From: Streptantibioticus rubrisoli
GTDB taxonomy: Bacteria > Actinomycetota > Actinomycetes > Streptomycetales > Streptomycetaceae
Direction of reading: 5' to 3'
Assembly: GCF_024436055.1 (NCBI RefSeq)
Contig: NZ_JANFNH010000002.1
Span: 248,001 to 312,000, forward strand
Length of the DNA: 64,000 nucleotides
Shown here: piece after piece, positions 6,182-27,907 of the stretch
Position numbering within the stretch: the stretch's first letter is position 1
Layout: each line of letters begins with the position of its first letter
Position numbers and translations under genes: made by a program
The notes under the pieces: generated by a model
Told to the model about the DNA's origin: nothing
Databases searched by the model: none
What the model saw: only the letters and a program-made list of their open reading frames with translations

Positions 6182-6228
6182 AGGCCCGCACCGCCGACCG
6201 ACCACCCAGCTCCCCGTGAAGGAACGCA

Positions 6229-7239: not shown

Positions 7240-7295
7240 GCACCGTCCCCCCACCGCCACGATGTGGCGCCTTCAACGATCTGAGGCGACTTCGG

Positions 7296-8606
7296 ATGAA
7301 GACCTTCTCCCACGAACGCCTGGCCGCCCTGGCCCGCGAGCGCGGGATGCCCGACGAGTACCTCCGTGACCTCAGGATCGTGTCGTCCGTACTGCCGTTC
7401 AAGGTGAACGAGTACGTCGCCCACCAGCTCATCGACTGGTCGGCGGCGCCCGACGACCCGATCTTCCGACTCACCTTCCCGCACCGCGACATGCTGCCGC
7501 CGGAGGTTTTCGAGGGCATCGCCGCCCTGTACGACGGCGATGCCCCGCGCGAGGTGCTGCGCAAGGCCGCGGCCGAGGCCCAGGCCCTGCTCAACCCCCA
7601 CCCGGGCGACCAGTTGGCGGCCAACGTGCCGACGCTGGACGGCCAGCGCCTCGACGGACTCCAGCACAAGTACGCCGAGACGGTGCTGGTCTTCCCCTCA
7701 CAGGGACAGACCTGCCACGCCTACTGCGGATACTGCTTCCGCTGGGCGCAGTTCGTCGGCGTCGCCGAACTGCGCCAGGCGCTGCGCGACCCCGCGCTGC
7801 TCACCGCCTACCTGGCTGGTCACCGAGAAGTCACCGACGTCCTGTTCACGGGCGGCGATCCGCTGATCATGAAGACCCAGGTGCTGCGCCGCTGGGTCGA
7901 ACCACTGCTGGACCCCGCCATGGAGTCGGTGCGCACGCTGCGCTTCGGCACCAAGGCGCTGTCCTACTGGCCCGCCCGCTTCACCACCGACCCCGACGCC
8001 GACGATCTGCTGCGGCTGTTCGAGCGGTGCGTCGCCGCGGGCCGCCATGTCGCGGTGATGGCGCACTTCTCCCACACCCGCGAGCTGGAAACCCCGCTGG
8101 TACGGGAGGCGATCGCCCGTATCCGGGCCACCGGTGCCGTCATCCGCGCGCAGGCGCCGCTCGTCGCCCACGTCAACGACGACGCCACCGTGTGGTCGCG
8201 GATGTGGCAACGCATGGTGGAGCTGGGCGTGTTGCCGTACTACATGTTCGTCGAACGCGACACCGGTGCCCGCAGCTACTTCGGCGTCCCGCTCGGCAGG
8301 GCGCACCAGATCTACACCGACGCCATACGCGGCGTCTCCGGACTCGCCCGCACCGCCCGCGGCCCGGTGATGTCCGCCGCGCCCGGCAAGGTGCTGGTCG
8401 ACGGCGTCACCACCATCGCCGGGGAACGCGTCTTCACCTTGCGCATGTTGCAGGCCCGCGACCCGCGCCAGGTCGGACGGCAGTTCTTCGCCGCCTACGA
8501 CCCGACCGCCGAGTGGTTCGACGACCTGCGGCCCGCGCTCGGCTCCTGGTTCCCCGGGCAACGCGCCGTGCGGGATGCCGAGTTGGCCGCGGCGGGCGCC
8601 CGATGA
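7296..8606 (+). CDS. radical SAM enzyme of the lysine 2,3-aminomutase (KamA) family
   Basis: The protein is 436 residues. The 4Fe-4S motif CxxxCxxC is Cys140, Cys144 and Cys147 (CHAYCGYCFRW), and a TGGDPL stretch at 185-190 matches the SAM-binding glycine motif. The C-terminal lysine that would carry PLP is Lys365, but the usual PGGGGK run around it reads SAAPGK. Family members move an alpha-amino group to the beta carbon using PLP and a 5'-deoxyadenosyl radical. The expected role is formation of a beta-amino acid building block. The altered PLP loop suggests a different substrate or reaction. Its stop overlaps the start of the next gene by 4 bases. Confidence 0.85.
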   Translation: MKTFSHERLAALARERGMPDEYLRDLRIVSSVLPFKVNEYVAHQLIDWSAAPDDPIFRLTFPHRDMLPPEVFEGIAALYDGDAPREVLRKAAAEAQALLNPHPGDQLAANVPTLDGQRLDGLQHKYAETVLVFPSQGQTCHAYCGYCFRWAQFVGVAELRQALRDPALLTAYLAGHREVTDVLFTGGDPLIMKTQVLRRWVEPLLDPAMESVRTLRFGTKALSYWPARFTTDPDADDLLRLFERCVAAGRHVAVMAHFSHTRELETPLVREAIARIRATGAVIRAQAPLVAHVNDDATVWSRMWQRMVELGVLPYYMFVERDTGARSYFGVPLGRAHQIYTDAIRGVSGLARTARGPVMSAAPGKVLVDGVTTIAGERVFTLRMLQARDPRQVGRQFFAAYDPTAEWFDDLRPALGSWFPGQRAVRDAELAAAGAR

Positions 8607-10093
8607 AGGCCACCGTCCACGAGGTCAGCCTCACCCAGCGCCATGTCTGGCGCTCCGCCCGCGAGGCGATACCCGTGCAGCCCGGCGTGGTGGTGGAGCT
8701 GGCGCAGGACGGAGCCAGCGGCTTCGGTGAGGCGTCGGCGTTCATGACGCACCGCTACAACTCCGACCTGGACCGCCTCCACGCCGACCTGCGCCGAATC
8801 GCCCCCGTACTGGCCGAGTTGGGCCCGGGCGACCCCTGGGCGGTGTGGCAGCTCCTCGCGGCCGAACTACCCGAATCGCCCTTCGTGCTCGCCGCGCTCG
8901 ACTCCGCCGTGCACGACCTGCGCGCCCGGCTGCTGGGGGTACCGCTATGGCGCTCCCTCGGTCTCGCCGAACCGCGTGGTCTGCGCTCCAGCTACAGCAT
9001 CGGACTGGACGAGCCCGCCGCGATGGCCCGCAAGCTCGGCGAACGACCGGGCTGGCACGCGTACAAGGTCAAGCTCGCCGACCCGGCGGACCTGACCATC
9101 CTCAAGGAACTGCGCCAGCACACCGACGCGCCGTTCTACGTCGACGGCAACTGCGGCTGGGAGCTGGACCGTACGCTGCCCGCGCTGGAGCACATGCGCG
9201 AACTCGGCGTCGAACTGGTCGAGCAGCCCTTCCCCCGGGAGGCCTGGGCGGACGCCCGCACCCTCAAGCGGCACAGCCCGCTGCCCGTACTGGCCGACGA
9301 GTCCATCACCTCACCCGCCGATCTCGACCCGTGCACCGAGGCCTTCCACGGCATCAACGTCAAGCCGATGAAGGCGGGCGGCATCACCCCCGCCCTGGCG
9401 ATGCTGCGCACCGCCCGGGAGCGCGGCCTGATCACCATGTTGGGCTGCATGTACGAGTCCGCGGCGGGCGTGACGGCCACCGCGCACCTCGGCGGCCTGG
9501 CCGACCACCTCGACGTCGACGTGGTCGACCTGCTCGCGGTGGACACCGGCCGCGGACTGGCCCTCGACGGCGTCGGCCGGGTCAGCCTCCCGGACCGGCC
9601 CGGCTCCGGCTATCTGCCCGACCCCTCGGCGCACGGCTGGCGGGTGCGGGCGGTGCCGGTCGAGGAGGTCCGGCCGATCCGCCACCAGGTGCTGCGGCCG
9701 GGGCAACCCGCCAGCTCCTGCGCCTACCCGGAGGACGGCGACCCCGGCGTCCGGCACTTCGCGGCGCTGGCCGCGGGCGAGACGGTCGGCGCGGCCTCGC
9801 TCTACCCGCAGGACCCGCCCGCCCCGCACACCGTCGCGGGGCTGCCACCCGGCCGCGGCTGGCGGCTGCGCGGTATGGCCACCGTGGAGACGGTGCGCGG
9901 CACCGGCGCCGGTTCCGCGCTGCTGCGCACCGCGCTCACCCATGCGGCGCTGGCCGGTGCCGGCGCCGTGTGGTGCAACGCCCGCAGCTCGGCGGCGGAT
10001 TTCTATCGACGGCACGGCTTCCAGGTCCTGGGCGAGGAGTTCGACATGCCGGGGATCGGGCCGCACTGGTTCATGTACTGGAGCCCGCGATGA
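8603..10093 (+). CDS. dipeptide-epimerase-like enolase-superfamily enzyme fused to a GNAT domain
   Basis: The protein is 496 residues in two parts. Residues 1-360 are a muconate-lactonising/dipeptide-epimerase-type barrel: KxK at Lys155/Lys157, metal ligands Asp181, Glu207 (VEQP) and Asp232 (DES), and a second base in NVKPMKAGG at 252-260. Residues from about 365 form a GNAT acyltransferase: RGMATVETVRGTGAGSALL is the acyl-CoA loop and WCNARSSAADFYRRHGF the closing motif. The first half would epimerise an alpha carbon of an amino acid or dipeptide; the second would acylate an amine. ATG at 8603 overlaps the kamA-like stop. I know no standard protein with this domain order. Frame continuity argues against an assembly fusion, but I cannot check this. 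Confidence 0.85.
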   Translation: MKATVHEVSLTQRHVWRSAREAIPVQPGVVVELAQDGASGFGEASAFMTHRYNSDLDRLHADLRRIAPVLAELGPGDPWAVWQLLAAELPESPFVLAALDSAVHDLRARLLGVPLWRSLGLAEPRGLRSSYSIGLDEPAAMARKLGERPGWHAYKVKLADPADLTILKELRQHTDAPFYVDGNCGWELDRTLPALEHMRELGVELVEQPFPREAWADARTLKRHSPLPVLADESITSPADLDPCTEAFHGINVKPMKAGGITPALAMLRTARERGLITMLGCMYESAAGVTATAHLGGLADHLDVDVVDLLAVDTGRGLALDGVGRVSLPDRPGSGYLPDPSAHGWRVRAVPVEEVRPIRHQVLRPGQPASSCAYPEDGDPGVRHFAALAAGETVGAASLYPQDPPAPHTVAGLPPGRGWRLRGMATVETVRGTGAGSALLRTALTHAALAGAGAVWCNARSSAADFYRRHGFQVLGEEFDMPGIGPHWFMYWSPR

Positions 10094-11175
10094 CCAGCAC
10101 AACACAAGCCCCGCCCACTCAACTCCCCCTGATCGGCGAGGAGTCGGCGCGTTACCTCGCCCATGCGGCGCTCACCGACGCGGGGGTCCCGGAGGCTGAC
10201 GCCCGGCAGGTGGCCGACGCTCTGGTGGACACCTCGCTGCGCGGCATCGACACCCACGGCCTGCGGCTGCTCCCGCAGTACCTGGACGAACTCGCCTCCG
10301 GCGTGGCCAGGTCCGCGGCCCGGACCACCGTCGTCCGGGACCGCGGCGCCGGTCTGCTGCTGGACGCCGACGGGTCGCTCGGGGTGCTCGCCGGACTGGT
10401 CGCCGCCCGGCTCGCCGCCGAGCGCGCCGCCCGGTTCGGTGTGGCAGCCGTGGGCGTACGCAACTCCAACCACTTCGGCGCCGCGTCCGTCTACACCCGT
10501 CAGCTGGCCCGACAGGGGCTGGTGGGAATCGCGGTCACCTCGGCGGCCTCCCGGGTCGCCCCGTACGGCGGGATCGAGCCGCTGTTCGGCACCAACCCCA
10601 TCAGTGTGGCCGCGGGTTCGGACGGCACCGAGTTCGCCCTGGACATGGCCACCAGCCAGGTCTGCTTCGGTGAGATCAAGCAGCGCAGGGCCGACGGCCG
10701 CCGACTCGACCCCGGCTGGACCACCGACGCCGACGGCCAACCGACCCAGCAGCCGGACGAGGCGTACGCGCTCTCGCCGCTGGGCGGCTACAAGGGGCAG
10801 GGGCTCGCCATGGCGGTCACCCTGCTCGGCGCCGCCCTCACCGGCTCACCGCCGGACTGGCGGCTGACCCAGGTCGGCGCGGGCGAGCCAGGGCGCAGCC
10901 GTCAGGTGGGACACCTGGTACTCGCCCTGGACCCCGGCGCGTTCTGCGGCCGGGAGCGATTCGACGCGGGCCTGGCCGACCTGCTGGCCACCGTCCGCTC
11001 CGCCGCCCCCGCCGGGGACCGGCCCGTCCTCGCCCCCGGCGACCCCCAGCGGGACCACGAGCGCCAGCGCCGCGCCCGCGGCATCCCGCTCGACGCGCGC
11101 ACCGCCGACGTGCTGGCGGAACTGGCCCGCCGCGTGGGCACCGAAGGCCCCACGGTCAGGGAGGCACAGGCGTGA
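10090..11175 (+). CDS. Ldh2/malate-lactate-dehydrogenase-type NAD(P)-dependent oxidoreductase
   Basis: The protein is 361 residues. Family signatures are the early DTSLRGIDTHGLRLLPQYL, the catalytic-loop NSNHFGAASVY, GTNPISVA, and DMATSQVCFGEI with GGYKGQGLAMAV further on. The family reduces 2-oxo or cyclic imino acids with NAD(P)H (malate, ureidoglycolate, delta-1-piperideine-2-carboxylate). In this operon, beside a transaminase and a 2-hydroxyacid oxidase, it would interconvert oxo, hydroxy and imino acids of the building block. ATG 10090 overlaps the upstream stop (ATGA), so translation is coupled. Confidence 0.85.
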   Translation: MTSTTQAPPTQLPLIGEESARYLAHAALTDAGVPEADARQVADALVDTSLRGIDTHGLRLLPQYLDELASGVARSAARTTVVRDRGAGLLLDADGSLGVLAGLVAARLAAERAARFGVAAVGVRNSNHFGAASVYTRQLARQGLVGIAVTSAASRVAPYGGIEPLFGTNPISVAAGSDGTEFALDMATSQVCFGEIKQRRADGRRLDPGWTTDADGQPTQQPDEAYALSPLGGYKGQGLAMAVTLLGAALTGSPPDWRLTQVGAGEPGRSRQVGHLVLALDPGAFCGRERFDAGLADLLATVRSAAPAGDRPVLAPGDPQRDHERQRRARGIPLDARTADVLAELARRVGTEGPTVREAQA

Positions 11176-12401
11176 TCCTGATACTGATCAGCCCGCGCAA
11201 CGCGGGCCTGCCGTTCGGCAGTTGGCTGGCGGAGAGCGCGGGCCGACTGCTGGCGGTCACCGCGGACGGCGTGGACATCGGAGCGGGCTTCGCCGAGACG
11301 GCGACCGTACCCGACTACACCGACGACGACGCGGTGCTGGCCGCCGCCCGGCGGCTCGCCGCGCGCCACCGGCCGACGGCGGTACTGGCACTCGCCGAGG
11401 TCGACGTGGAGCGAGCCGCCGTACTGCGCGGCGAGTTGGGGCTGCCCGGCCTGGACACCGCCGCCGCCCTGGCCTACCGCGACAAGGTGCTGATGAAGCG
11501 CTACGCCCGCGGTGCCGGGCTGAAGGTGCCGGACTTCGCCCCGGTGCGCGAGGTCGCCGACATCGTGTCCTTCATGGCCGGGCATGCCGGCCGGGTGGTG
11601 GTCAAACCGCGTTCGGGATCCGGCTCCACCGGTGTGCACGTGCTGGACCATCCGTCCCAGGCGGCCGGTCTCGCGGACACCATCGCGGCCGACGGCTACG
11701 AGGTCGAGGAGTTCGTGGACGGCGCGCTGCACCATGTGGACGCCTTCCGGGTGGACGGCGCCGCGGTGGTCGCGGTGCCGTCCCGCTACACCAGCGACGG
11801 ATGTCTGGCGCACTGGACCGACACCCCCTTCGGCTCCACCACCCTGGCGCTCACCGATCCGCTGGGCGCCCGACTCGTCGCGGAGACCTGGCGGTTGATC
11901 GACGCGCTGCCGTCGCCGCCGACGGTCTGCGCGCACGCCGAGTTCTTCGTCACCGCCAGCGGCGAGATCGTGCTGTGCGAGGTGGCCGCCCGGATCGGCG
12001 GCGGCCCCATACCGACGATGCTGCGGCATGTCATCGGCACCGACCCGCGCCGGATGTGGTCCCGGGTGGAATGCGGCCTGCCGGTCGACTTCGCACCGGT
12101 ACGCGAGCGGGCGGCGACGGCACCGCACGCGGCCTTCTGCGGCATACCGCCCCGGCGGGGCCGGGTGCTGCGGGTCCCCGAGGCACCGGCCGACGTCCAT
12201 GACTTCACCCTCAACACCCACATCGGGGACGACTGGAGCGGGGAGCGCTACCAGCACCGCAAGTCGGCGGACTTCATGGCCAGTTGGGTGGTCACCGACC
12301 CGGATCCGGTGGCGCTGCGGGCGCGGCTGCGGGCCACCGTCGCCGAGGTCGCGGCGGGCTTCGACTGGGAGCTGGAAGCCGTGGCGGGAGGTGTCCGATG
12401 A
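11172..12401 (+). CDS. ATP-grasp ligase (first of two)
   Basis: The protein is 409 residues with the order N-domain, ATP-grasp and C-extension. The phosphate-binding loop VVVKPRSGSGSTGVHVL is near residues 138-154 and the metal-binding end of the fold is LCEVAARIGGGPI near 268-280. It resembles carboxylate-amine ligases of the L-amino-acid ligase/carbamoyl-phosphate-like group that activate a carboxylate as acyl phosphate and join it to an amine. GTG at 11172 overlaps the upstream stop by 4 bases. It probably forms one peptide or amide bond of the cluster product. The C-terminal 100 residues are not a family I can name. Confidence 0.8.
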   Translation: MILILISPRNAGLPFGSWLAESAGRLLAVTADGVDIGAGFAETATVPDYTDDDAVLAAARRLAARHRPTAVLALAEVDVERAAVLRGELGLPGLDTAAALAYRDKVLMKRYARGAGLKVPDFAPVREVADIVSFMAGHAGRVVVKPRSGSGSTGVHVLDHPSQAAGLADTIAADGYEVEEFVDGALHHVDAFRVDGAAVVAVPSRYTSDGCLAHWTDTPFGSTTLALTDPLGARLVAETWRLIDALPSPPTVCAHAEFFVTASGEIVLCEVAARIGGGPIPTMLRHVIGTDPRRMWSRVECGLPVDFAPVRERAATAPHAAFCGIPPRRGRVLRVPEAPADVHDFTLNTHIGDDWSGERYQHRKSADFMASWVVTDPDPVALRARLRATVAEVAAGFDWELEAVAGGVR

Positions 12402-13612
12402 GCTACACGGCACGCGTCCTACCCGCCGACCTGCGCCCGACCGCGCGGGACTTCCGCGGCCTCGGCAACCCCGACACCATCTGGGAGGACGCCCGTTGGT
12501 GCCGGTTCACCGAACGCACCGACCTGCACGAGGTGCGCTACCTGCGGATCGAGGAGTACGGCCACACGGTGGCCCTGGCCCCGCTGCTGCTCACCCGTGA
12601 GCCGGGCGGCCTGCTGTTCTACGATCCGCCCCGGCTGGCCACAACCGCCGGTGCGATGGCCGAACCCGAACTTCTCGATCCGGCGGACCGGGAACGTTGG
12701 ACCAAGCTCACCGAGGCACTGGCTACCGACCGGGCGGACCACTACCCCACGGTGGCGCTGGCCACCTTCGGCTCTCACCACGGTGTGGCCCACGCCCCGG
12801 ACCGCACCCCCGGCCAGCGGCTGGCCGTGATGGCCGCGCTCCCCGGCCTGCTCGCCGACGCGGCCGCCGAACTGGGCTGCCGCAGTAGCGCGTTGCTGTA
12901 CGTACCGGAACCGGCGGCGGCCGAGGTCGACCGGGCGGCCACCGGCGCCGGATACACCGCCGCACTGCTCGGCGCCGAGGGCGTCGCCCAACTGACCGCG
13001 TCCAGTTGGGAGGAGTACCTGGCCGGGCTCAGCAGCCGCCGCCGCACCCGGCTGCGCAAGGAACTGAAGGAGTACGAGCGGTCCGGCTTCCGCACCGTGA
13101 TCCGCCGCGGGCCGGAGGCGATCGACGACGAGGTGGTCGCACTCCAGGTCGCGCACCGGGCGAAGTACGGACTGCCCGGCGGAGACGAGCGGGTGCGCCG
13201 GGACTTCGACGGCATCCGCGCGGAACTCGGCGAAAGCTGCCTGGTGTTGGGCGCCGAGTGGGACGGTGAGCTGCTGGGCTTCGTGCTGTTCCTGCGCACC
13301 GACGAGGCACTGTTCGCCCGTACCGCGGGCTTCGCCCCGCAGGCGCAGGGGTGCTATCTGGCACTCACGTACCACGAGGCCGCCCGCTTCGCGGTGGAGG
13401 GCGGCATCCGCCGGATCCACTACGGAATGGCCGCCTACGAGGCCAAGTTCGCCCGCGGCTGCGAACTCCAGCCGCGCTGGGGCTGGTTCGCCTTCCACGG
13501 CCCGGACGCCGACGCCTACCGCGAGGCGCTGGCCCTGCAGTCACACAGCATCGAGCGCCGACTTGAGCGGGTCGGCGCCCCCGCGACTCCCGTCCCCTCC
13601 CGCAGGAGCTGA
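12398..13612 (+). CDS. FemAB-like/GNAT-fold transferase
   Basis: The protein is 404 residues. Two GNAT-like halves are suggested. The second contains SSRRRTRLRKELKEYERSGF at about 210-230, LGAEWDGELLGFVLF and FARGCELQPRWGWF, which match the peptidoglycan-biosynthesis/recognition FemAB-like family. FemAB proteins transfer amino acids from aminoacyl-tRNA to an amine; others in this family are untested acyltransferases. Placed between two ATP-grasp genes, it may be a third amide-forming enzyme. ATG 12398 overlaps the upstream stop. Whether it takes aminoacyl-tRNA or acyl-CoA cannot be told. Confidence 0.75.
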   Translation: MSYTARVLPADLRPTARDFRGLGNPDTIWEDARWCRFTERTDLHEVRYLRIEEYGHTVALAPLLLTREPGGLLFYDPPRLATTAGAMAEPELLDPADRERWTKLTEALATDRADHYPTVALATFGSHHGVAHAPDRTPGQRLAVMAALPGLLADAAAELGCRSSALLYVPEPAAAEVDRAATGAGYTAALLGAEGVAQLTASSWEEYLAGLSSRRRTRLRKELKEYERSGFRTVIRRGPEAIDDEVVALQVAHRAKYGLPGGDERVRRDFDGIRAELGESCLVLGAEWDGELLGFVLFLRTDEALFARTAGFAPQAQGCYLALTYHEAARFAVEGGIRRIHYGMAAYEAKFARGCELQPRWGWFAFHGPDADAYREALALQSHSIERRLERVGAPATPVPSRRS

Positions 13613-13615
13613 CCG

Positions 13616-14536
13616 ATGAAACTGCAACCCACCGGCACCATCTGGATGGACGGCGAGTTCGTCCCCTGGGACCAGGCACAGGTCCATGTACTGACCCCGA
13701 GCCTGCACTACGGATGGGGCGTCTACGAGGGCATCCGCGCCTACCCGACAGCCGAAGGACCCGCGGTCTTCCGGCTGCGCGAACACCTGGAGCGGCTGCA
13801 CGACTCCGCCCGGGTCTACCTGATGGATCCCGGCTTCACGGTGGACCAACTCACCGAGGCGGCATTGGAGTTGCTGCGCCGCGTCGGCCTGGACTCCGCC
13901 TACCTGCGGCCCATCGTCTACCTCGGCTACGGCACCATGGGCGTCGCCCCCCAGCTGGACAGCGCCCGGGTGGCCATCGCCGCCTGGCCCTGGGGCTCGT
14001 ACCTGGGCGAGAAGGCGGAGCAGGAGGGCTGCCGGCTCACCGTCAGCAGCTGGCAGCGCAACGGCATCCACTCGGTGCCCCCGCTCGCCAAGGCCACCGG
14101 CGCCTACGTCAACTCGGCGCTGGCGAAGGTCGCCGCCATCCGCGCGGGCTACGACGACGCGCTGCTGCTCACCCCGACCGGTCACGTGGCGGAGGCCTCC
14201 GCCGCGAACGTCTTCGCGGTGCGCGACTCGGTCCTGGTGACCCCGCCGGTCAGCGACAACATCCTGCCCGGGATCACCCGGCAGTCCCTCATCACCCTGG
14301 CCCGGGACTTCGGCCTCACCGTCGAGGAGCGCAGCCTGACCCGCGGCGAACTGTACGTCGCCGACGAGGCGTTCTTGACCGGCACCGCCACCGAGGTGGT
14401 ACCGGTCGCCTCGGTCGACGACCGACCGATGGGCGCCGGAGGCTGCGGACCGGTCACCAAGCAACTGCGCGAGGCCTTCACCGACGTGGTCCACGGACGC
14501 AACCCCACCTACCGCCACTGGCTGGAGTACGCGTGA
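13616..14536 (+). CDS. branched-chain-type class IV PLP aminotransferase
   Basis: The protein is 306 residues, the normal length for IlvE. The N-terminus IWMDGEFVPWDQAQVHVLTPSLHYG is typical, the PLP lysine is Lys159 in PLAKATGAYVNSALAK, and EASAANVFAVRD and GTATEVVPV complete the fold-type IV signature. The enzyme transfers an amino group between glutamate and a branched or aromatic 2-oxo acid. In this cluster it probably serves a building block rather than primary valine/leucine synthesis, given its place in the coupled operon. It starts 3 bases after the FemAB-like stop. Confidence 0.9.
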   Translation: MKLQPTGTIWMDGEFVPWDQAQVHVLTPSLHYGWGVYEGIRAYPTAEGPAVFRLREHLERLHDSARVYLMDPGFTVDQLTEAALELLRRVGLDSAYLRPIVYLGYGTMGVAPQLDSARVAIAAWPWGSYLGEKAEQEGCRLTVSSWQRNGIHSVPPLAKATGAYVNSALAKVAAIRAGYDDALLLTPTGHVAEASAANVFAVRDSVLVTPPVSDNILPGITRQSLITLARDFGLTVEERSLTRGELYVADEAFLTGTATEVVPVASVDDRPMGAGGCGPVTKQLREAFTDVVHGRNPTYRHWLEYA

Positions 14537-15315
14537 GTTCAGGCATCACCTCCGACACCGGGATCCGGCCCGCCGACGCCCGCGCGGACGGATCCCCCGG
14601 CAGCCTCGCGGCCCTGGAGGCCGCGGTCGCCAGGCTGACCGGCGCGGCACTGGCACTGCGCGACGACACCGGCCCCTGGGCGGTCTCGCGTCGGGAGGAA
14701 GCCGCCGACCGGGCCGTCGACCTGCTGGCCGCCCGCGCCTGGCGGGCGCTGCCCGCCGCCTCGCACGGCAACGCCGAGGTGGCCGCCCGGCGTTGTGTGT
14801 GCTACCTCCTCGCCCGCGACACCGCGCTGGCCGCCGGGTGCCGCGACACGGATCCGGCCAGAGCGCACCGGCTGGCCGCTCACGCGCTGCTGCTGCTCAC
14901 CCTGGCCGAGCACTTCGACGCCGCCACGTTCAGGACCAGGGAACTCCTCGGCCCGGCCCCCGAGGGCCGGTTGCTGGCGGCCTGGCGCATGGTGGACGAG
15001 GCGCTGGAGCGGCTGTCCACCACCCGCCATGAGTGGGTGGGCGCCGAGCCGGGCGTGGTGGCGGCCGCCGGATGGGTACTGGTGGACCGCGTCGGCCGAC
15101 TGCTCACCGGGGCCGCACTCGTCGCACAGGCCGCCGGGCGCAACCGCACCGCCGAACACCCGGACGCCACAGCCGAGTTGCTGGTCAACGCCGCACGCCG
15201 GTACGCCTGGAACCATCTGCGCGGCCCGGCGCCGGAAGCCGCGACACCGACGCATGTCCGCCGTTCGCTGGAGTTGCTGTGCGCGCTGGCACCCGGCGGC
15301 AAGGGGGCGCCGTGA
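14533..15315 (+). CDS. unknown helical protein
   Basis: The protein is 260 residues and I do not recognise the family. The sequence is almost wholly alanine- and leucine-rich helix (AALEAAVARLTGAALAL, AHRLAAHALLLLTLAEHF, AAGWVLVDRVGRLLTGAALVA) with no signal peptide and no continuous membrane span. The pattern is loosely like the four-helix C-terminal half of acyl-CoA dehydrogenases, without an FAD or catalytic motif that I can identify. GTG at 14533 overlaps the aminotransferase stop, and its own stop overlaps the MFS start, so it is made with the cluster. It may be a helper protein or a diverged oxidoreductase domain. Confidence 0.7.
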   Translation: MSSGITSDTGIRPADARADGSPGSLAALEAAVARLTGAALALRDDTGPWAVSRREEAADRAVDLLAARAWRALPAASHGNAEVAARRCVCYLLARDTALAAGCRDTDPARAHRLAAHALLLLTLAEHFDAATFRTRELLGPAPEGRLLAAWRMVDEALERLSTTRHEWVGAEPGVVAAAGWVLVDRVGRLLTGAALVAQAAGRNRTAEHPDATAELLVNAARRYAWNHLRGPAPEAATPTHVRRSLELLCALAPGGKGAP

Positions 15316-16613
15316 CCCGGGTGGCGCGGCGGCTCGCCGGACTGCTGCTGCCGGACGGTGCGGCGGGCCGGATGCTGGCCCTGGGCGCCTGCGTCGACTC
15401 ACTGGGCACCGGCATGTTCTTCGCGTCGGCCACCTTGTACTTCGTCGGCATGGTCGGCATCCCCGCCACCAAGGTGGCGTTCGCGACCACGCTCGCCGGG
15501 GCGCTGGCACTGCTGGCCCCGGTGCCGCTGGGACGGCTCGCCGACCGGGCGGGCACCGGCACGTTCTACATGGTTCTGCTCCTGCTGCGCGGACTGGGCT
15601 ACAGCGCCTACGCGTTCGTCACCGGCTACCCCGCCTATCTGGTACTGACCGTGCTGCTCACCGCGTTGGACCGGTCAAGCACCCCGATCCAGCAGGCCGT
15701 GGTGACCGCCGCGATCGGCGGCGGCGACCGCACCCGGACGATGGCCTCCATCCGTGCCGTGCGCAACATCGGCCTGACCGTCGGCTTCCTGCTGGCGGGC
15801 GCGGTCTTCGCGTCGAGCAGCAGGGGCGCGTTCACCGTCCTCTTCCTCGCCAACGGCGTCTCCTTCCTGGTCGTGGCGGGCACGGTACGGCTGGCGCTGG
15901 CCCGCACCGGGACGACCGTACGGCGCGAACCCGCCCCAGGCGGCGCCGCGCAGCGGCCCGAGGTGGTCCGATCGCCGTTGCGCGACTGGTGGTTCATGGT
16001 CTTCACGGTCGGCAACGGCGTACTGTCGCTCTACGACACCGTGCTGGTCGTGCTGCTGCCGGTGTGGGTGATCCAGCACACCTCGATCGCCTCCGCCTGG
16101 GTGCCGGTGCTGATGGCCGTCAACACCGTGCTCACCGTGGTGCTCCAGGTCTATGTCGCCCGGTTCGCCGAGACCGCGGCCGCCGCGGTCCGGCTGCTGG
16201 TGCTGGCCGGTGCGCTGATGATGGCGTGCTGCGGGTTCTTCGCGCTCGGCCAGGCGCAGTCCACCGGTGTGGCGGTGGCCGCGGCGCTGATGGCGGTGGT
16301 GATGCTCTCGGTCGCCGAGAACCTGCACTCGGTCGCCGCCTGGGAACTGTCCTCCGAGTTGGCGCCGCCCGCCGCCCGCGCCCGCTACCTCGGCGCCTTC
16401 AGCCTCTCCCTCACCGGGCAGAAGGTGGTCGGACCCACCCTGCTGGTCGTCGTCCTGCTCCCCACCGGGCTGATCGCCTGGCCGGTGCTGGCCGGTGCGT
16501 TCGGCTGCGCCGCACTGGTCTGCCGTACCGCGGCCCGCCGCAGCCTCGCCGAGCGGGCCGGGCACATCCAGGCCCTGCCCTCAACCCTCCCAACCACCGA
16601 GGTGACCCCATGA
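15312..16613 (+). CDS. MFS transporter
   Basis: The protein is 433 residues with about 12 hydrophobic segments and the loop-2-like motif PLGRLADRAGTG at about 75-86. This is the layout of drug:H+ antiporters of the major facilitator superfamily. It starts with GTG overlapping the upstream stop. Sitting inside the biosynthetic operon, it is the likely exporter of the product and may give self-resistance. Confidence 0.88.
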   Translation: MTRVARRLAGLLLPDGAAGRMLALGACVDSLGTGMFFASATLYFVGMVGIPATKVAFATTLAGALALLAPVPLGRLADRAGTGTFYMVLLLLRGLGYSAYAFVTGYPAYLVLTVLLTALDRSSTPIQQAVVTAAIGGGDRTRTMASIRAVRNIGLTVGFLLAGAVFASSSRGAFTVLFLANGVSFLVVAGTVRLALARTGTTVRREPAPGGAAQRPEVVRSPLRDWWFMVFTVGNGVLSLYDTVLVVLLPVWVIQHTSIASAWVPVLMAVNTVLTVVLQVYVARFAETAAAAVRLLVLAGALMMACCGFFALGQAQSTGVAVAAALMAVVMLSVAENLHSVAAWELSSELAPPAARARYLGAFSLSLTGQKVVGPTLLVVVLLPTGLIAWPVLAGAFGCAALVCRTAARRSLAERAGHIQALPSTLPTTEVTP

Positions 16614-17866
16614 GTGAGCATGTTCTCGTCGTAGGCAGCGGCCGCGACCTGCCGACCCGGGTGCGAAGCGCCCTGCCCGGCACGCGCACCTCGGTGATCT
16701 GCCGACTGGAATACGTCTCCAAGCTAAGGGAGTTGACCGAGCACACCCGGGTGATCGCGGTACGCCATGACGCACCGGACGAGGAGTGGATCGAACTCGC
16801 CTCCGCCGCGCACGCCCGGCATCCGTTCACCCGGATCGCCACCTTCGGCGAGCGCGACCAGGACCGCTGCGCCGCGATCGGCGAGGCGCTCGGCATCCCG
16901 ACGCATTCCCCGCGGACCGTGGCCCTGGTGCACGACAAGCACGCCATGCGCGCCCGGCTGCGGGAAGCCGGAGTCGACACCACCGCCTCCGCCCTGGTGG
17001 CCGACCCGGCCGAACTGCGGGACTTCGTGGCCGAACACGGACTGCCCTGCGTGGTGAAGCCGGTACGCGGCGCGGGCAGCGCCGGTGTCGCGGTGGTACG
17101 CGAGGAGGGCGCGCTGGCGGCGGCCTTCGCGCGGGCCAGCGACAGGTTCGACGGGCTGCCCGACGCCGGTGTGCTGGTCGAACAGTTCCATGAGGGACCG
17201 CAGTTCAGCGTGGAGGCGTTCTCGGAGGACGGTGAGCACCAGGTCGTCGCGATCACCCGGAAGTTCTCCGATCCGGTCACCTTCGTAGAACTCGGCCATG
17301 TCGCACCAGCCGAACTGACGGTCCTTCAGGAAAAGGAAGTGCACACCTACGTGGAGCGGTTGCTCGACACCCTCGGCGTGACGAGCGGCGCCACCCACAC
17401 CGAGCTCGTACTGGGCGAGGCGGGGCCGAAGGTGATCGAGACCCATGTCCGGATGGGCGGCGACGAGATCCCGGCCCTGGCACTGGACGCCACCGGTGTC
17501 GACATCGCCGAGTGCGTGGTGCGGCAGACGGTGGGGGAGCGGGTGCTGCCCGGCATCAGGCAGACGCTCGCCGAGCAGCGGCCCGGCCGCAGCTCCGCGA
17601 TCTGGTTCGCGGCATCACCCGCCGCCGGTGAACTGACCGAAGTCCACGGGCTTGAGGACGCCCGGCGGACGCACCGGGTCACCGAGGTCGAGCTGCTGGT
17701 CCGCCCCGGTGGCAGCTGCGGCACCCTGGAGTCCTCCGAGTCCCGGATCGCCTACGCGCGCGCCCTCGGGGACACGGCCGACGAGGCGGTGGCCGCCGCC
17801 CGGCAGGCCGTAGAGCGGCTGGAGTTCCAGCTGCGGCTGCGGGCGGCCGACGGGGAGACGGTGTGA
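16610..17866 (+). CDS. ATP-grasp ligase (second of two)
   Basis: The protein is 418 residues. The ATP loop is CVVKPVRGAGSAGVAVV near 145-161, and the metal-binding segment is VIETHVRMGGDEIPAL near 274-290. The overall build (N-domain, ATP-grasp, C-domain with LLVRPGG) matches L-amino-acid ligases of the biotin-carboxylase-like group, such as BacD-type dipeptide ligases. It shares only the fold with the first ATP-grasp protein, so two different bonds are likely. ATG 16610 overlaps the MFS stop. Confidence 0.85.
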   Translation: MSEHVLVVGSGRDLPTRVRSALPGTRTSVICRLEYVSKLRELTEHTRVIAVRHDAPDEEWIELASAAHARHPFTRIATFGERDQDRCAAIGEALGIPTHSPRTVALVHDKHAMRARLREAGVDTTASALVADPAELRDFVAEHGLPCVVKPVRGAGSAGVAVVREEGALAAAFARASDRFDGLPDAGVLVEQFHEGPQFSVEAFSEDGEHQVVAITRKFSDPVTFVELGHVAPAELTVLQEKEVHTYVERLLDTLGVTSGATHTELVLGEAGPKVIETHVRMGGDEIPALALDATGVDIAECVVRQTVGERVLPGIRQTLAEQRPGRSSAIWFAASPAAGELTEVHGLEDARRTHRVTEVELLVRPGGSCGTLESSESRIAYARALGDTADEAVAAARQAVERLEFQLRLRAADGETV

Positions 17867-18984
17867 CCGGCACCACCGTCGCCAGCACCCCGCAGGCGGC
17901 CACCGACCGCCCGCGGGGCGCCGCCCCGCTGAACCTCGCCGACTACCGTGCGGCGGCCCTCAAGATCCTGCCCACGGCGGCCTTCGACTACCTGGAGGGC
18001 GGTGCGGCGGACGAGCACACCGTCCGCTGGAACCACGAGGCCTACCAGCGACTGGCCCTGCTGCCCCGGGTGCTGGCGGGCCACGTGGGCGCGCACACCG
18101 GCTGCTCGGTGTTCGGCACCGCCCTGGACTCGCCGATCCTGCTGGCCCCGGCCGCCTCGCACCGCCTGTTCCACCCCGGCGCCGAGGCCGCCACCGCCCA
18201 CGGGGCCGCCGCGGCAGGGGCGTTGATGACCGTGAGCACCTTCTCCTCGCAGACGGTTGAGGAGATCGGCGCCACGGCCACCGGCCCCTGGTGGTTCCAG
18301 CTCTATGTGCAACGGGACCGCGCGCTCACCGCGGAACTGGTGCGCAGGGCGGCGGCCGCGGGCGCCCGGGCCTGTGTGGTCACCGTCGACACACCGGTCA
18401 CCGGAGTGCGCGAGCGGGACCTGCGCAACGGCTTCGCACTGCCCTCCCACGGCACACCGGCCAACCTCGCCCATGTCCAGGGCAGTTCGACGCACGGCGC
18501 GATCCACGATCCGCGGATCGATCCCGCGGTGGGCTGGGACGACCTGGAACGGCTGCGCGCGGTCTGTGGACTGCCGGTGCTGGCCAAGGGCATCCTGCGG
18601 GCCGAGGACGCGCAGCGCGCGGCCGACGCCGGTTTCGGGGTGTGGGTCTCCAACCACGGTGGCCGCAACCTCGACACCGCCGCGGCCACGCTGTCCGCCC
18701 TGCCCGCCATCGCCGAGCGGGTGGCGGGTAGGGTGCCGGTCATCGTCGACGGGGGCATCCGCCGCGGAACCGACGTGGTCAAGGCGCTCGCCCTCGGCGC
18801 CGACGCGGTGGCCATCGGCCGTCCGTACGTGTGGGGCCTGGCCGTCGGCGGCGCGGACGGAGTACGGGACGTCGTCCAGACGCTGCGCAGGGAGACCGAG
18901 TTGGCGATGGCCCTGGTCGGCGCGGCGACCCTGGACGACCTGACGGCGGACCTGGTGGTGCCCGCCGGGGTTCACCGCCCGTAG
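17863..18984 (+). CDS. FMN-dependent alpha-hydroxyacid oxidase
   Basis: The protein is 373 residues, the usual length for glycolate/lactate/hydroxymandelate oxidases. It has the FMN-barrel signatures FDYLEGGAADE near residue 44, the active-site SNHGGRNLD near 263-271, VIVDGGIRRGTDVVKALALGADAV, and IGRPYVWGLA. These enzymes oxidise a 2-hydroxy acid to a 2-oxo acid with O2. Next to an aminotransferase, it could make the 2-oxo acid that is then aminated, as in the hydroxymandelate route to hydroxyphenylglycine, though no hydroxymandelate synthase is present. It is the last gene of the operon; its end overlaps the PhzF-like gene by 13 bases. Confidence 0.88.
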   Translation: MTGTTVASTPQAATDRPRGAAPLNLADYRAAALKILPTAAFDYLEGGAADEHTVRWNHEAYQRLALLPRVLAGHVGAHTGCSVFGTALDSPILLAPAASHRLFHPGAEAATAHGAAAAGALMTVSTFSSQTVEEIGATATGPWWFQLYVQRDRALTAELVRRAAAAGARACVVTVDTPVTGVRERDLRNGFALPSHGTPANLAHVQGSSTHGAIHDPRIDPAVGWDDLERLRAVCGLPVLAKGILRAEDAQRAADAGFGVWVSNHGGRNLDTAAATLSALPAIAERVAGRVPVIVDGGIRRGTDVVKALALGADAVAIGRPYVWGLAVGGADGVRDVVQTLRRETELAMALVGAATLDDLTADLVVPAGVHRP

Positions 18985-19688
18985 AGCTCGGCGACGGCGT
19001 CCCGGATCCCGGCGCCGGGCTGGTCGACGACGCAGCGCCCGCCGAGTTCCACCCGGACGCCGTCCACCGGCCGGGTCATGATGACCGCCCGGTGCCTGCC
19101 GTGCACCACCCGCAGGGCACGGCCGAGCTTCAGCGTCAGCAGCATGGACGCGCTGCCGCACGCCTCGTCCTCGCCCTTGCCGATCCGCGGCGCCCACAGC
19201 CTGGCCCGCACCTGACCGGCCTCCCGGTCCAGCCATGACCACACCTGGGTGAAGTCCTCCCCCTCGGGCAGCCCGGTCAACGCGTCGATCTCCTGCGGGC
19301 TGGCCATCTCGTAGTGGCGCCACGGCTTGGACCAGGCGGCGGGCGCCGTCAGCCACACCGTGCCGTCGTCGTCACGTCGACAGGCGACGGCACCGGCCCG
19401 CGGCACCAGTTCCGTGACCGGTGTGCCCAGCCGGTGCAGCACTTCCACGGCGGCCAGCAGCGGGTGCCCGCCGAAGCGGATCAGCTGGCCGTACGAACTG
19501 TGGATGTCGACCAGACCGCGCTCGGCATCGCGCACGAACACGGTGGCCGGAATGCCGAGCCGGGTGGCCAGGGCCTGCCGCTCCTCGCTGGTGACGGGCG
19601 CGTCGGCCGGTTCGACCACGATCAGGGCGGGGTTGCCGTGTGCGCCGTCGGCGTTCACGAACGCCCGGGCGAGCATGCAAGTGATCAC
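18972..19688 (-). CDS. PhzF-like protein lacking the catalytic glutamate
   Basis: The protein is 238 residues. The fold signatures AHGNPALIVVEP near residue 18-27, GGHPLLAAVEVL, and GKGEDEACGSASMLL identify the PhzF/diaminopimelate-epimerase-like family. PhzF enzymes use a glutamate in a (S/N)E(T/S)xF motif as the general acid-base; here the matching site reads PATVF with alanine, so ordinary PhzF isomerase chemistry is doubtful. There is no clear ribosome site; a TAGCGT hexamer lies close to the GTG at 19688 and a leaderless start is possible (TTG 19691 and ATG 19676 are alternatives). It is convergent with the hydroxyacid oxidase. Confidence 0.75.
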   Translation of the reverse strand: MITCMLARAFVNADGAHGNPALIVVEPADAPVTSEERQALATRLGIPATVFVRDAERGLVDIHSSYGQLIRFGGHPLLAAVEVLHRLGTPVTELVPRAGAVACRRDDDGTVWLTAPAAWSKPWRHYEMASPQEIDALTGLPEGEDFTQVWSWLDREAGQVRARLWAPRIGKGEDEACGSASMLLTLKLGRALRVVHGRHRAVIMTRPVDGVRVELGGRCVVDQPGAGIRDAVAELYGR

Positions 19689-19822
19689 CAACTCACGCTA
19701 CCAGCACACCAGTTGGTCAGACCGTGCGGAGCCCGTCGGCTTCCATCGCGCGCGGCGCCCGGCAGCCCTGTTCGACACCCCGTGGGATCTGGGCGTGGTG
19801 TGACGCATGGCGTGTGTGCCCC

Positions 19823-20947
19823 TCAACGGATCGGTCGTTCGGCTCCGTGGGCGAGGAACGCCAGCAAGGCGGTGTAGCAGGTTTCCAGCGCGTCGCGGCT
19901 GACGAACTCGCGTGGGGTGTGGGCGAGTTCGGGGTCCCCCGGGCCGAAGTTGATCGCCGGAATGCCATGGGCGGCGAACCTGCCCACGTCCGACCAGCCC
20001 AGCCTCGGCTTGATCTCGCCCCCCGCCGCCGCGCACGCCTGTGCCACCAGCGGATGGGCCAGAGCGGGCGGCGCGGGCGGCGACGAGAGCACCACCCGGA
20101 CGCGGTCGGCCTCCGGGGCGAGCCCGGTGACGACATCCAGCGCCGCCGCACTGTCCAGGGTGGGCGCGTGCCGGTAGTTGACCCGCACCGAGCAGTGGTC
20201 GGGCACCACATCGCCCTGCACACCGCCGTCGACACCGACCACGCAGAGGGCCTGCCGGTAGACCAGTCCGTCGATGTCGACGGGCTCAGGGACGAAACCG
20301 CTGATCCTGGCCAGCGCGACCGCCGCACGGTGGATGGCGTTGACGCCCTGCCATGGGCGGGCGGTGTGCGCCCGCACGCCGTCGAAGCCGAGGTCCACCA
20401 CCAGGTTGCCCTGACATCCGGCCTCGACGCGGCCGTTGGTCGGTTCCAGCAGGATCGCCAGATCGCCGCCCAGCAGATAGGGGTAGTCGGTGAGGAGCAG
20501 GTTGGTTTCGCTCCGGCGCGAGCCGATCTCCTCCTTGTCGTAGAACAGGAAGGTCAGGTCGAACCCGCTGTCCTTCGCCCGCTCGGCGAGCGCCAGCATG
20601 ACGGCCACCCCGCCCTTCATGTCCACGGCGCCGAGGCCGCGGACCGTCTCGGGAGCGCCGTTCGTGGCGCGGCTGCCGGGCGGGAACTCCGGGACGGTGT
20701 CGAGGTGCCCGGCGAGAACGATGCGCTGCTGGGCGCCCTTGCCGGTGCGGGCGATGACGTTGTTGCCGATGCGCCGCACGGTCAGGTCGGGCGCGCGGTC
20801 CAGCAGGCGGCGTTCCACTAGGTCGGCCAGCTCCCGCTCGTTACCGCTCACGGAGCGGATGGCGACCAGGCCGTCGGTGAGTTCCAGCAGATCCGTGCTG
20901 TGCAGTACGCGATGGTGCTCGCGGGTCGTGGTCGCGGTACTGGTCAC
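19823..20947 (-). CDS. M20-family metallopeptidase, DapE/ArgE-like
   Basis: The protein is 374 residues. Zinc-binding landmarks are AGHLDTVP, GAVDMKGGVAVMLALA, and YDKEEIGSRRSE, followed by the lid domain and a C-terminal REFVSRDALETCYTALLAFL. Family members remove acyl groups from amino-acid amines (succinyl-diaminopimelate, acetylornithine) or cut dipeptides. GTG at 20947 is chosen because AAGGAGGAAC lies about 10 bases upstream; the longer frame to 21019 has no such site. It may unmask a succinylated or acetylated intermediate, such as one made by the GNAT domain of the fused epimerase (inference), or be the cell's DapE. Confidence 0.88.
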   Translation of the reverse strand: MTSTATTTREHHRVLHSTDLLELTDGLVAIRSVSGNERELADLVERRLLDRAPDLTVRRIGNNVIARTGKGAQQRIVLAGHLDTVPEFPPGSRATNGAPETVRGLGAVDMKGGVAVMLALAERAKDSGFDLTFLFYDKEEIGSRRSETNLLLTDYPYLLGGDLAILLEPTNGRVEAGCQGNLVVDLGFDGVRAHTARPWQGVNAIHRAAVALARISGFVPEPVDIDGLVYRQALCVVGVDGGVQGDVVPDHCSVRVNYRHAPTLDSAAALDVVTGLAPEADRVRVVLSSPPAPPALAHPLVAQACAAAGGEIKPRLGWSDVGRFAAHGIPAINFGPGDPELAHTPREFVSRDALETCYTALLAFLAHGAERPIR

Positions 20948-21421
20948 GAAACGGGGTTCCTCCTTCGGTTTCCTTGGTGCGCAGCGCCATCCGGTGGCCC
21001 CTCCAGGCTGGTTGGTCAAGCCACCCGAATGCCCACCGGACCTGATGTCGGTGCGGGCGTGGACTTGTCGCTGTCTCGCCGCATCCTGCCGGGCCGGTCT
21101 TCCCGGAGCATCCGGCAGCGGGCGTCAGGATCCTGCAAGAGGCGAACCTGAAGGGGGCCGAAACGCATAGCAAACCGGACATAGAGGCTGCTCGTGATGC
21201 GGCTCGTGTCAAGGGCGGGAAAGCCGCTCGGTCACCAGCCGGGCTTTTCACCCGCCCGGCCTTCGTGGTGACGCGATCAGGAACAGCCGAGGAAGACACA
21301 AGGACGGCAAGCGGGACGACAAGCTGTCCGCAAGCCGGATCCGGCACACTCCTTGGCGTCGGCTTCACCCGCACCGGCGGCCTGACAAGCCGCCGCCCAG
21401 AACCTGTGAAGGCCACCAGCC
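20948..21421. promoter_or_regulatory. divergent control region with a long structured leader
   Basis: This 474-base gap separates the M20 gene (minus) from the adenylation gene (plus). Near its right end a strong hairpin can form from GTCACCAGCCGGGC (21231-21244) with GCCCGGC (21254-21260) and TGGTGAC (21266-21272). A second stem, GGGCGGGAAAGCC (21213-21225) with GGCTTT and CCCGCCC (21242-21257), uses the same bases and excludes the first. Mutually exclusive stems about 150 bases before a start codon are typical of attenuators. I do not recognise a known riboswitch consensus and see no coding potential. Confidence 0.4.
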
Positions 21422-22996
21422 ATGAGCCACCGCGTCCGCACGGAACACGCCACCATCCACGGCCTGTTCGACGAGCAGGCCGCCCGCACGCCCGACCGGA
21501 CCGCACTGCGCGACGCGCGGGAGTCCCTGACGTACGCCGAGACCCGGCGTCGCGCCGACGCGCTCGCCGCCCGGCTGCACCAGCACTGTCCACGGCCGGG
21601 AGCGCGGATCGGGCTGCGGCTGGAGCGCGGTGTGCGGATGGTCGTCGCGATGCTGGCGGTTCTCAAGTGCGGCCACACCTATGTGCCGTTGGACCCGGCG
21701 TATCCCGCCGAGAGGCTGCGCCGCATGGCGCTGGACGCCGAACCGGCCCTGATCCTCACCGACCAGGACCTGGCCGACGACGTACCGCCAGCGGCCGAGG
21801 CACGGCCGCCGGAAGTGGCGGTCACCCCCGACGCACCCGCCTACGTCCTCTACACCTCGGGTGCGTCCGGCCCGCCCAACGCCGTGCCGGTACCGCACCG
21901 CAACGTGCTGGCGCTGGTGCGCGCCTGCGGCGAACGGTACGAACTCGGCGCCGAGGACGTGTGGACCTCGCTCCACTCCTTCGCCTTCCACCTGTCCGTC
22001 TGGGAGATCTGGGGCGCCCTGCTGCGCGGCGGAACGCTGGTGGTGGTGCCACGGGAGGTGGCGGCTTCCCCGCGGGCCACCCTCGACCTGCTGGCCCGCG
22101 AGCGGGTGACGGTCCTCACCGCGGTGCCCTCGGTCTTCCGCCACCTGGTCCGCGCCACGGCTGCCTGGGTCGGCGAAGTCCCGGTACCGCGCCATGTGTT
22201 CCTCGCCAGCGAGCCGATCGACATACGGGACATACGCTGCTGGCGGCGCGCCTTCGGAACGGCCAGCCGGTTCGTCAGCACCTACGCCCTCACCGAGGCG
22301 ACCTGCTTCGCCGCCCACCGCCCGCTGACCGATGAGGAGTTGGACGGCACCCAACCGCCGGAGCCGCTCGCCGATCTCGGAGAACCGCTGGAGGGGGTGG
22401 AGTTGGCCGTGCTGGGGGAGGGCGGTCAGCCGATCCGTCCCGGAGAGATCGGCGAGATCCATCTGTCCGGTGCCGGGTTGGCCACCGGCCGCCCGACCGA
22501 GCGGTACCACCGCACCGGGGACCTCGCCCGTATGCGCGGCGACGGCAGGCTGTACTACGCCGGGCGGGTCGAGGACGAGGTGCGGACCAACGGACCGCGC
22601 TTCGGACTTGGCGAGGTGGAGACCGTGTTGCGGCAGGCACCGGGAGTGCGGGAACTCGTCGTGGTCACAACCAGCAGCGGCGTGGGCGAACCGATGATGA
22701 CGGCCTTCTACACGGTGCGCACCTCGGCCCAGGTGGACCTGGGCACCCGGCTGTCCGCGCACGCCCGCGCCGAACTGCCCGTACACATGGCGCCGACCCG
22801 CTTCGTGCGGCTTCCGGAGTTGCCGATCAGCCCCTCGGGCAGGACCGATCGCGCGGCGTTGGCGGCCTGGCGGCCGCCTATCCAGACCGTGCTGCCCAGC
22901 ACCCTCCGGGCGCCCCGCCTCCCGGACGCCTTGCCAGGTCACTCACCCATGAGCTCCTGGAGCAGGCGTGTCGCGGGCAGTTCGGGGCGCAGGTAG
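21422..22996 (+). CDS. stand-alone adenylation-domain protein with altered core motifs
   Basis: The protein is 524 residues and has an NRPS-type adenylation domain with no carrier or condensation domain. Motif A3 reads TSGASGPPNAVPVPH, so the usual lysine is Asn153. The amino-group-binding aspartate region reads SFAFHLSVWEIWG, with His190 where alpha-amino-acid domains have Asp. Motif A5 reads YALTE for YGPTE. Motif A10 reads ISPSGRTDRAAL, so the catalytic lysine is Arg474. A7 (HRTGDL) and most of A8 (GRVEDEV) remain. The first half-reaction should be impaired unless Arg substitutes, and a standard alpha-amino acid is unlikely. It overlaps the regulator's 3' end by 58 bases, convergent. Confidence 0.8.
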   Translation: MSHRVRTEHATIHGLFDEQAARTPDRTALRDARESLTYAETRRRADALAARLHQHCPRPGARIGLRLERGVRMVVAMLAVLKCGHTYVPLDPAYPAERLRRMALDAEPALILTDQDLADDVPPAAEARPPEVAVTPDAPAYVLYTSGASGPPNAVPVPHRNVLALVRACGERYELGAEDVWTSLHSFAFHLSVWEIWGALLRGGTLVVVPREVAASPRATLDLLARERVTVLTAVPSVFRHLVRATAAWVGEVPVPRHVFLASEPIDIRDIRCWRRAFGTASRFVSTYALTEATCFAAHRPLTDEELDGTQPPEPLADLGEPLEGVELAVLGEGGQPIRPGEIGEIHLSGAGLATGRPTERYHRTGDLARMRGDGRLYYAGRVEDEVRTNGPRFGLGEVETVLRQAPGVRELVVVTTSSGVGEPMMTAFYTVRTSAQVDLGTRLSAHARAELPVHMAPTRFVRLPELPISPSGRTDRAALAAWRPPIQTVLPSTLRAPRLPDALPGHSPMSSWSRRVAGSSGRR

Positions 22997-26133: not shown

Positions 26134-26525
26134 GTCGGTCCCTATCGGTCTGAGGCCTGCGGCGGTGCTGGGACGAGGCCTGAAGCGCCCGGATCGCCCA
26201 GAACGTGATCTTGGCATACGGAACGGGACACTCCAAGATCGCTATTCAGCCACTGAGCAGCGTCCGCAAGCCAAATGACGGCGACCCGGCGACGACGGCA
26301 CGTCTCCGGCAGGCCCGACCGGCACGGCGCCCTCAGGGTGCGCGCCGACCCAGTGGCGCCCGCGCGGCGCACCCACTCCGGGCGCTAAGGGAAAGTCGGT
26401 GCGGTTCGGTAGCGCCTTGAAGGGGCGCGGGGCTGTGTTCATGTGCGGCTCCGCCGCGTGGGCGCGACCTGCCAGGACGGCTGCCGACGATCGACGGCAT
26501 TTCGTGGCAACCCCCAGCGGAGCGC
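26134..26525. other. intergenic region with one interspersed repeat
   Basis: This gap of 392 bases lies between the SARP gene start and the 3' end of the ligase gene. Bases up to about 26280 are relatively AT-rich and should hold the SARP promoter. The only other recognisable item is the 56-base interspersed repeat at 26419-26474. No gene is seen. Confidence 0.5.
26419..26474 (+). repeat. 56-base interspersed repeat, copy 1
   Basis: The unit opens GAAGGGGCGCGGGGCTGTG and closes with GCGTGGGCGCGACCTGCCA. A second copy, inverted, lies at 45953-46008 and differs at about five positions. From memory, this element is scattered through many Streptomyces genomes in intergenic DNA. No function is known to me. 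Confidence 0.65.
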
Positions 26526-27872: not shown

Positions 27873-27907
27873 CCCTGCCTCCCGCACTTCCGTAGCCACG
27901 GCTGCCT

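Follow-up and report, generated by a model that had tools for sequence, protein, structure and literature searches.

Stand-alone adenylation (A) domains that act in trans are known, and those of WS9326A (PMC7539972) are of a kind comparable to the gene described here. Inactive A domains are also known inside assembly lines (PMC8949500 and PMC2644324). Degenerate A domains of the albicidin, ramoplanin and enduracidin type, and that of S. pombe sib1, are described as having eroded core motifs while remaining recognisable, as is the case for this gene; they sit within a multidomain synthetase, whereas the present A domain has a gene to itself, near which no carrier domain was found. Aryl-acid A domains lack Asp235 and instead carry Asn235 and a QQVxFMAEGL A5 motif according to PMC11253843, a review that also names the A8 and A10 lysines (K434 and K517) as key to the two half-reactions and credits the A10 lysine with stabilizing the adenylation half-reaction. 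A search of open-licence texts turned up neither a paper on A domains that are stand-alone pseudoenzymes nor one on Streptantibioticus adenylation domains.

The gene lies at 21422..22996 (+) of a 64 kb stretch of DNA (G000:C27:248001-312000), hereafter the window, from a draft genome of 103 contigs. Its 524-codon open reading frame is free of stops, has a GC3 of 0.89 and codon-position GC as in real genes of the window, and belongs to the adenylate-forming enzyme fold family by its matches to PF00501 (249.4 bits against a cut-off of 29.9) and PF13193 (29.7 bits against 24.5). A Pfam scan of the frame found no domain beyond this AMP-binding pair, such that the A domain is encoded alone, as in trans-acting stand-alone domains, and is not embedded in a multidomain synthetase. 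On TIGR01733, the NRPS amino acid adenylation profile, the window protein scores 296.5 bits, below the cut-off of 317.4, while its ortholog in S. ferralitis (386.3 bits) and three relatives (399.7, 405.4 and 411.6 bits) all score above it. Translation, both Pfam matches and this score point to a stand-alone A domain gene that is catalytically degenerate. The C-terminal tail (22877..22996, +) shows no family conservation in the alignment with homologs, and the last 58 bases of the gene overlap a convergent SARP/BTAD regulator gene (22939-26217, -). An AlphaFold2 model from a two-sequence alignment of the window protein and one ortholog reached a mean pLDDT of 38.4 and a pTM of 0.26 and was set aside.

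The four substitutions listed in the earlier note, Lys to Asn in A3, Asp to His in A4, a change in A5 and Lys to Arg in A10, are all present, the motif names being those that we take to apply to the alignment of the window and S. ferralitis proteins. Specifically, the A3 P-loop (21854..21886, +) reads TSGASGPPNAV, with S148A, K153N and G154A found in the window alone. The A4 change D190H (21989..21991, +), at the equivalent of GrsA D235, is likewise window-only, as are the replacement of FGGE by LASE at residues 261-264 (22202..22213, +) and G289A in the A5 motif YALTE (22283..22297, +). The I to L change in A5 is common to the window and S. ferralitis, and so are Q386E, K388R, I394F and E395G in A8, the hinge (GRVEDEVRTNGPRFGLGEVE, 22562..22621, +), as well as K474R in A10 (22841..22843, +), at the equivalent of GrsA K517; D384E is a further A8 change of the window protein. 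The earlier list was therefore incomplete, since it lacked the GGE to ASE change, S148A, G154A and all five A8 changes. Its description of A5 as YGPTE turned into YALTE needs correction: G to A alone is unusual here, and the Leu is normal for a subfamily that reads YG[I/L]TE (YGITE in 13/13 relatives, YGLTE in S. ferralitis) and in which the Pro of YGPTE is atypical. Ala at the A5 Gly also occurs in one other enzyme of the window genome (L096).

At the positions of A3 Lys, A4 Asp, A5 Gly and A10 Lys in active amino-acid A domains, the window protein thus has N, H, A and R, and both lysines designated as key in the review, A8 K434 and A10 K517, align with Arg. In the alignment with A domains and homologues, a check suggested alongside the earlier claims, 13/13 relatives keep the residues altered in the window: PKGV, FDFS, FGGE, YGITE, DDQVK[I/V]NG and GKTD are retained in all homologs of the family search, with an A10 context of SGKTD in 12 and AGKTD in L022. 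Within the same genome, 28 other AMP-binding enzymes were compared, many of them acyl-CoA ligases and not NRPS domains, from a total of 38 PF00501 matches (ten, the window's own included, were left out); the A10 Lys is kept in 28/28, and the A3 Lys position is occupied by K in 24, R in 3, M in 1 and N in 0. The comparison with relatives supports the earlier view that ordinary amino-acid activation would be unlikely.

The protein has also lost several stretches, contrary to the earlier statement that full length was kept. In the codon alignment with S. ferralitis, 19 codons are absent after residue 355, between A6 and A7 (junction at residues 355/356, 22484..22489, +), which takes out family-conserved residues, RP among them. 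Losses of 3 and 8 codons, 11 together, flank the A2-A3 linker near residues 118-122 (21776..21787, +; gap placement is approximate), and a variable loop around residue 308 is shorter by a further 3 codons. Every gap is in frame, and the protein length is partly made up by the unconserved tail.

The gene was found in 2/3 genomes of the genus at E <= 1e-90, namely the window's own and G001, whose contig C77 and NZ_JARHTQ010000006.1 (Streptantibioticus ferralitis JCM 14344, L011) gave the same alignment and were treated as one genome. A search of 394 genomes of the family returned 12 with a match at E <= 1e-95, in 15 places, which minus the window and G001 form the 13-homolog outgroup set; this set excludes L009 and L010, which duplicate the window gene and L011, as well as the distant matches L012-L014. 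A class-wide search (394 genomes, E <= 1e-105) recovered the window genome and G141 only and no nearer ortholog, and a plasmid search yielded a single homolog, at 45%, which the S. cattleyicolor megaplasmid carries and which appears in two records.

The comparison of the two sister species gives further insight into the order of loss. The S. ferralitis ortholog is 71% identical to the window A domain over residues 1-516 with gaps counted and 78.7% without gaps, and it shares with the window protein the altered A8 (EVRTNGPRFGLGE) and A10 (SGRTD). Unlike the window protein, it keeps A3 (TSGSTGQPKGV), A4 (FDLS), FGGES, A5 (YGLTE) and the A6-A7 segment. Because S. ferralitis retains A3-A5 and shares the A8 and A10 changes, loss proceeded stepwise; most simply, A8 and A10 would have changed before the species split and A3-A5 afterwards, in the window lineage, as judged from one window-lineage sequence and one ortholog.

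The counts of changes are compatible with this order. Once columns with gaps in more than two outgroups had been dropped, 148 columns were invariant across the 13 homologs; of these, 13 are altered in the window only (11 substitutions, 2 deleted), 0 in S. ferralitis only and 16 in both; of the last, 10 have the same residue and 6 different states, one being a deletion in the window. In columns at least 80% conserved, the window has 6 changes plus 5 deleted versus 2 in S. ferralitis, in those 50-80% conserved 14 plus 4 deleted versus 4, and in variable columns 8 plus 5 deleted versus 11. The identical shared changes occupy 10/44 columns in A3, A4, A5, A7, A8 and A10 and 0/101 elsewhere (p = 3e-6), with motif borders that were drawn on the S. 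ferralitis row after the alignment had been inspected. With both kinds of shared change counted, A8 is the motif with the most (6/16 columns).

Window-only substitutions cluster around the substrate pocket. They affect 6/18 columns of a 34-position 8 A pocket set versus 5/112 elsewhere (p = 9e-4; p = 0.001-0.002 in a mutability-weighted simulation), the positions being those that we take from the NRPS specificity literature, mapped onto the alignment by motif anchors. With the A3 P-loop added post hoc, the counts are 9/27 versus 2/103 (p = 9e-6). A3, A4 and A5 alone give 5/15 versus 6/115 (p = 0.003), and A3, A4, GGE and A5, a set picked after data inspection, p = 3.5e-5; the plain motif set of A3, A4, A5, A7, A8 and A10 (5/32 versus 6/98, p = 0.14) and the A1-A10 set (6/49 versus 5/81, p = 0.33) are not significant. 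Deleted columns were excluded from the motif, pocket and outside-pocket tests. In 12 other cluster genes, window-only and S. ferralitis-only changes number 57 and 68, as against 28 and 7 in the A domain (p = 4e-4), or 27 and 8 with another outgroup (p = 1e-3); three outgroups were used each, those of the control genes differing from those of the A domain. The acceleration therefore appears specific, among the genes tested, to the A-domain gene and to the window lineage.

The gene adjoins a peptide-type cluster (5453..18984, +) that has no carrier domain by profile matches and is collinear in S. ferralitis. Its order is TauD, AurF, KamA-like, MR_MLE+GNAT, Ldh_2, ATP-grasp, FemAB-like, IlvE, unknown, MFS, ATP-grasp/LAL_C2 and FMN_dh, and a search of open-licence texts found no paper on a TauD/AurF/KamA/ATP-grasp cluster. 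The KamA-like gene (7296-8606) is widespread, with homologs at E <= 1e-60 in 62/394 genomes of the family, counting that of the window, and in a PDB sequence search lysine 2,3-aminomutase was the sole match of its product at E <= 0.001, with 54 bits. The gene at 8603-10093 fuses an enolase-superfamily racemase-like domain (MR_MLE) to a GNAT acetyltransferase domain. Between the cluster and the A domain stand a PhzF-like gene (18972..19691, -), which is present in S. ferralitis, like the A domain, and unmatched in three other cluster regions read, and a second DapE-like gene (19823..21019, -), which by profile and synteny separates phzF from the A domain in the window species but is absent from this position in S. 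ferralitis; its product shares 48% identity with that of the C19 copy. The interval that phzF and the A domain leave in S. ferralitis (L028:15553-16134) contains an open reading frame with a middle that looks by eye like a transporter remnant. The cluster and the PhzF-like gene are collinear in the two species at 80-93% identity, the A domain being lowest, and in both the A-domain gene lies at the edge of the cluster. On the far side of the gene, the window encodes a phenylacetate-CoA ligase PaaK (26526-27899, TIGR02155 above cut-off) and, at 28060-38145, hydrogenase maturation genes for a HycI-type protease, HypA, HypF, HypC, HypD and HypE, which stand behind a formyltransferase/enoyl-CoA hydratase fusion that we take to be of the HypX type. 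A PADLOC scan gave no match.

No PP-binding match lies within the 64 kb window, so that the nearby carrier partner of a trans-acting A domain was not found there; the genome as a whole has 60 such matches, the nearest on this contig at C27:199646, outside the window, and a distant partner elsewhere in the genome may exist. The corresponding S. ferralitis region (G001:C77:50000-99000) also has no PP-binding match, with 88 in the genome. The TauD-to-FMN_dh cluster recurs in 3/7 genomes with KamA regions fetched (G314, G349 and G181), where stretches reaching 8.7, 8.1 and 7.5 kb past FMN_dh contain nothing that matches the A domain, PhzF or DapE at E <= 1e-10. As the cluster occurs there without it, the A-domain gene looks like a cluster accessory in two species. 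The regions of G375, G210, G368 and G113 do not contain the complete cluster, and the A-domain match present in each is more distant, at 28-36% identity. Nine KamA-like regions were examined in all, window and S. ferralitis included, and five hold the cluster.

The closest comparison is provided by homologs of the same subfamily that are 47-54% identical to the window protein and appear to be trans-acting stand-alone A domains beside C-T-C proteins (L032, L033, L035, L036, L039, L040 and L042), with one A domain per open reading frame by length and by domain scan for L035. In L035 and L032, the stand-alone A domain adjoins an Asn-synthase-like protein and comes two genes after a protein that combines a PP-binding domain with two condensation stretches; in L042, it follows a C-A-T protein and a thioesterase and stands just before a protein of the two-condensation/PP-binding type. 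In 3/3 neighbourhoods scanned, a carrier-bearing protein is thus found next to the A domain or two genes away, which supports descent of the window gene from a trans-acting A domain. In L031, a scan of the long open frame recognised an A domain alone. The substrate code of these relatives resembles what we take to be a threonine code. These trans-acting relatives keep A3, A4, A5, A8 and A10 and, in the three scanned, their carrier-bearing neighbours, whereas the window gene has neither.

The available data are compatible with a model in which the ancestor was a trans-acting stand-alone NRPS A domain that charged the carrier of another protein, of C-T-C type. In the ancestor shared with S. ferralitis, the gene would have stood beside the carrier-less ATP-grasp peptide cluster, whose peptide bonds are probably made by the ATP-grasp ligases. 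The A10 lysine and A8, the motif on the thiolation side, would have been altered before the split, and the window lineage would next have lost the P-loop, the alpha-amine Asp, GGE, the A5 Gly and the A6-A7 segment while retaining most invariant scaffold positions. The loss of the carrier may have been the cause, and the product, presumably still folded, would no longer activate an acid with ATP. This model, a trans-acting A domain that is now without its carrier partner and has become a pseudoenzyme accessory to the ATP-grasp pathway, has about an even chance of being right. On these comparisons, the window protein is probably a dead or dying enzyme rather than one with new chemistry, and the best reading is either a scaffold role or early decay.

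Early decay would make the gene an ordinary pseudogene that lost its use recently and drifts neutrally behind a frame left open by chance, an account that is the foremost rival and seems less likely than not. In a simulated neutral run that hit 11 invariant codons, the probability of no stop was 0.24, 0.42 or 0.62 under three mutation models, so that the open frame says little and was rejected as proof of function. The earlier claim of a preserved gene stands as regards the frame and is weakened both by these chance probabilities and by two deleted stretches that relatives retain, which fit decay, as does the missing A-domain match in three related cluster regions. Outside the pocket, P-loop, A8 and A10, moreover, window changes are somewhat raised, at 16 versus 7 for S. 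ferralitis with three outgroups (p = 0.09) and 13 versus 4 with five (p = 0.05). However, the hits are unevenly spread across conserved positions, the gaps are all in frame, and the window-branch omega, 0.165 or 0.161 with two outgroup pairs, is below 1 (2 delta lnL 13.4 and 9.8), which is still compatible with a short late neutral phase. The S. ferralitis omegas (0.099 and 0.103) are not separable from the window branch (2 delta lnL 0.79 and 0.41), and all these values are rough, as outgroup branches are long and the window omega of several control genes is also not separable from 1. Pairwise dN between the two species is 0.137 for the A domain, the highest of 15 genes, while its dN/dS of 0.339 (NG86) is within the range of the other genes (up to 0.372). 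In 60-codon blocks, dN varies from 0.047 to 0.247; dS is even along the gene (0.37-0.45), and recombination was rejected on this ground.

It is possible, if rather doubtful, that the ancestral form, still seen in S. ferralitis, works by adenylation alone and hands acyl-AMP over to an acceptor other than a carrier within the ATP-grasp pathway, a role that the window copy would since have lost; this is compatible with the favoured model of a pseudoenzyme accessory. The intact A3, A4 and A5 of the S. ferralitis protein, its 0/148 private changes at invariant columns, the absence of a PP-binding match near its gene and the concentration of shared changes in A8 are in line with such a role. The A10 Lys, adenylation-stabilizing according to PMC11253843, is nevertheless Arg in S. 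ferralitis too.

A pseudoenzyme with a job of its own is less probable still. In that case, the ATP and amino-acid sites would have been dismantled under selection and the scaffold kept to serve the carrier-less pathway by binding a partner or sensing a ligand; a regulatory or structural, non-catalytic role is possible. For a pattern of catalytic residues lost on a kept scaffold, the 9/27 versus 2/103 contrast speaks in favour, and the 19-codon loss and the plain-motif p = 0.14 against. Because the 19-codon loss removed conserved residues, decay fits that loss better than a kept scaffold does; from the 19-codon, 3+8-codon and 3-codon losses together with the dN and omega results, a kept scaffold, as in the favoured model, has only moderately better odds than an early pseudogene.

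An active ligase for an acid without an alpha-amine, or one working with another half-reaction, as proposed in the earlier note, is improbable. Pocket remodelling would indeed concentrate changes in the pocket, and DhbE-type aryl-acid A domains lack Asp235 as the window protein does. However, the P-loop Lys and Gly, GGE and the A5 Gly have gone alongside the alpha-amine Asp, as has the A6-A7 segment, the A8 and A10 lysines align with Arg, no carrier domain lies within the window, and the aryl-acid signatures are absent, His190 and TYALTEATC standing in their place. Sequencing or assembly error can be dismissed as very improbable despite the draft state of the genome, given many scattered single-base substitutions, normal GC3, even dS and no frameshift.

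Taken together, the two sister species appear to have caught an A domain at two stages of loss, with A8 and A10 altered first and the adenylation pocket next. Should the gene still yield a protein, this would be a non-catalytic A domain that stands free, unlike the inactive ones known from within assembly lines. Should it not, the case would warn against taking an A domain as a guide to product structure because its frame is open and its Pfam score strong. In either case, a degenerate A domain of this sort would leave the understanding of adenylation chemistry unaffected.
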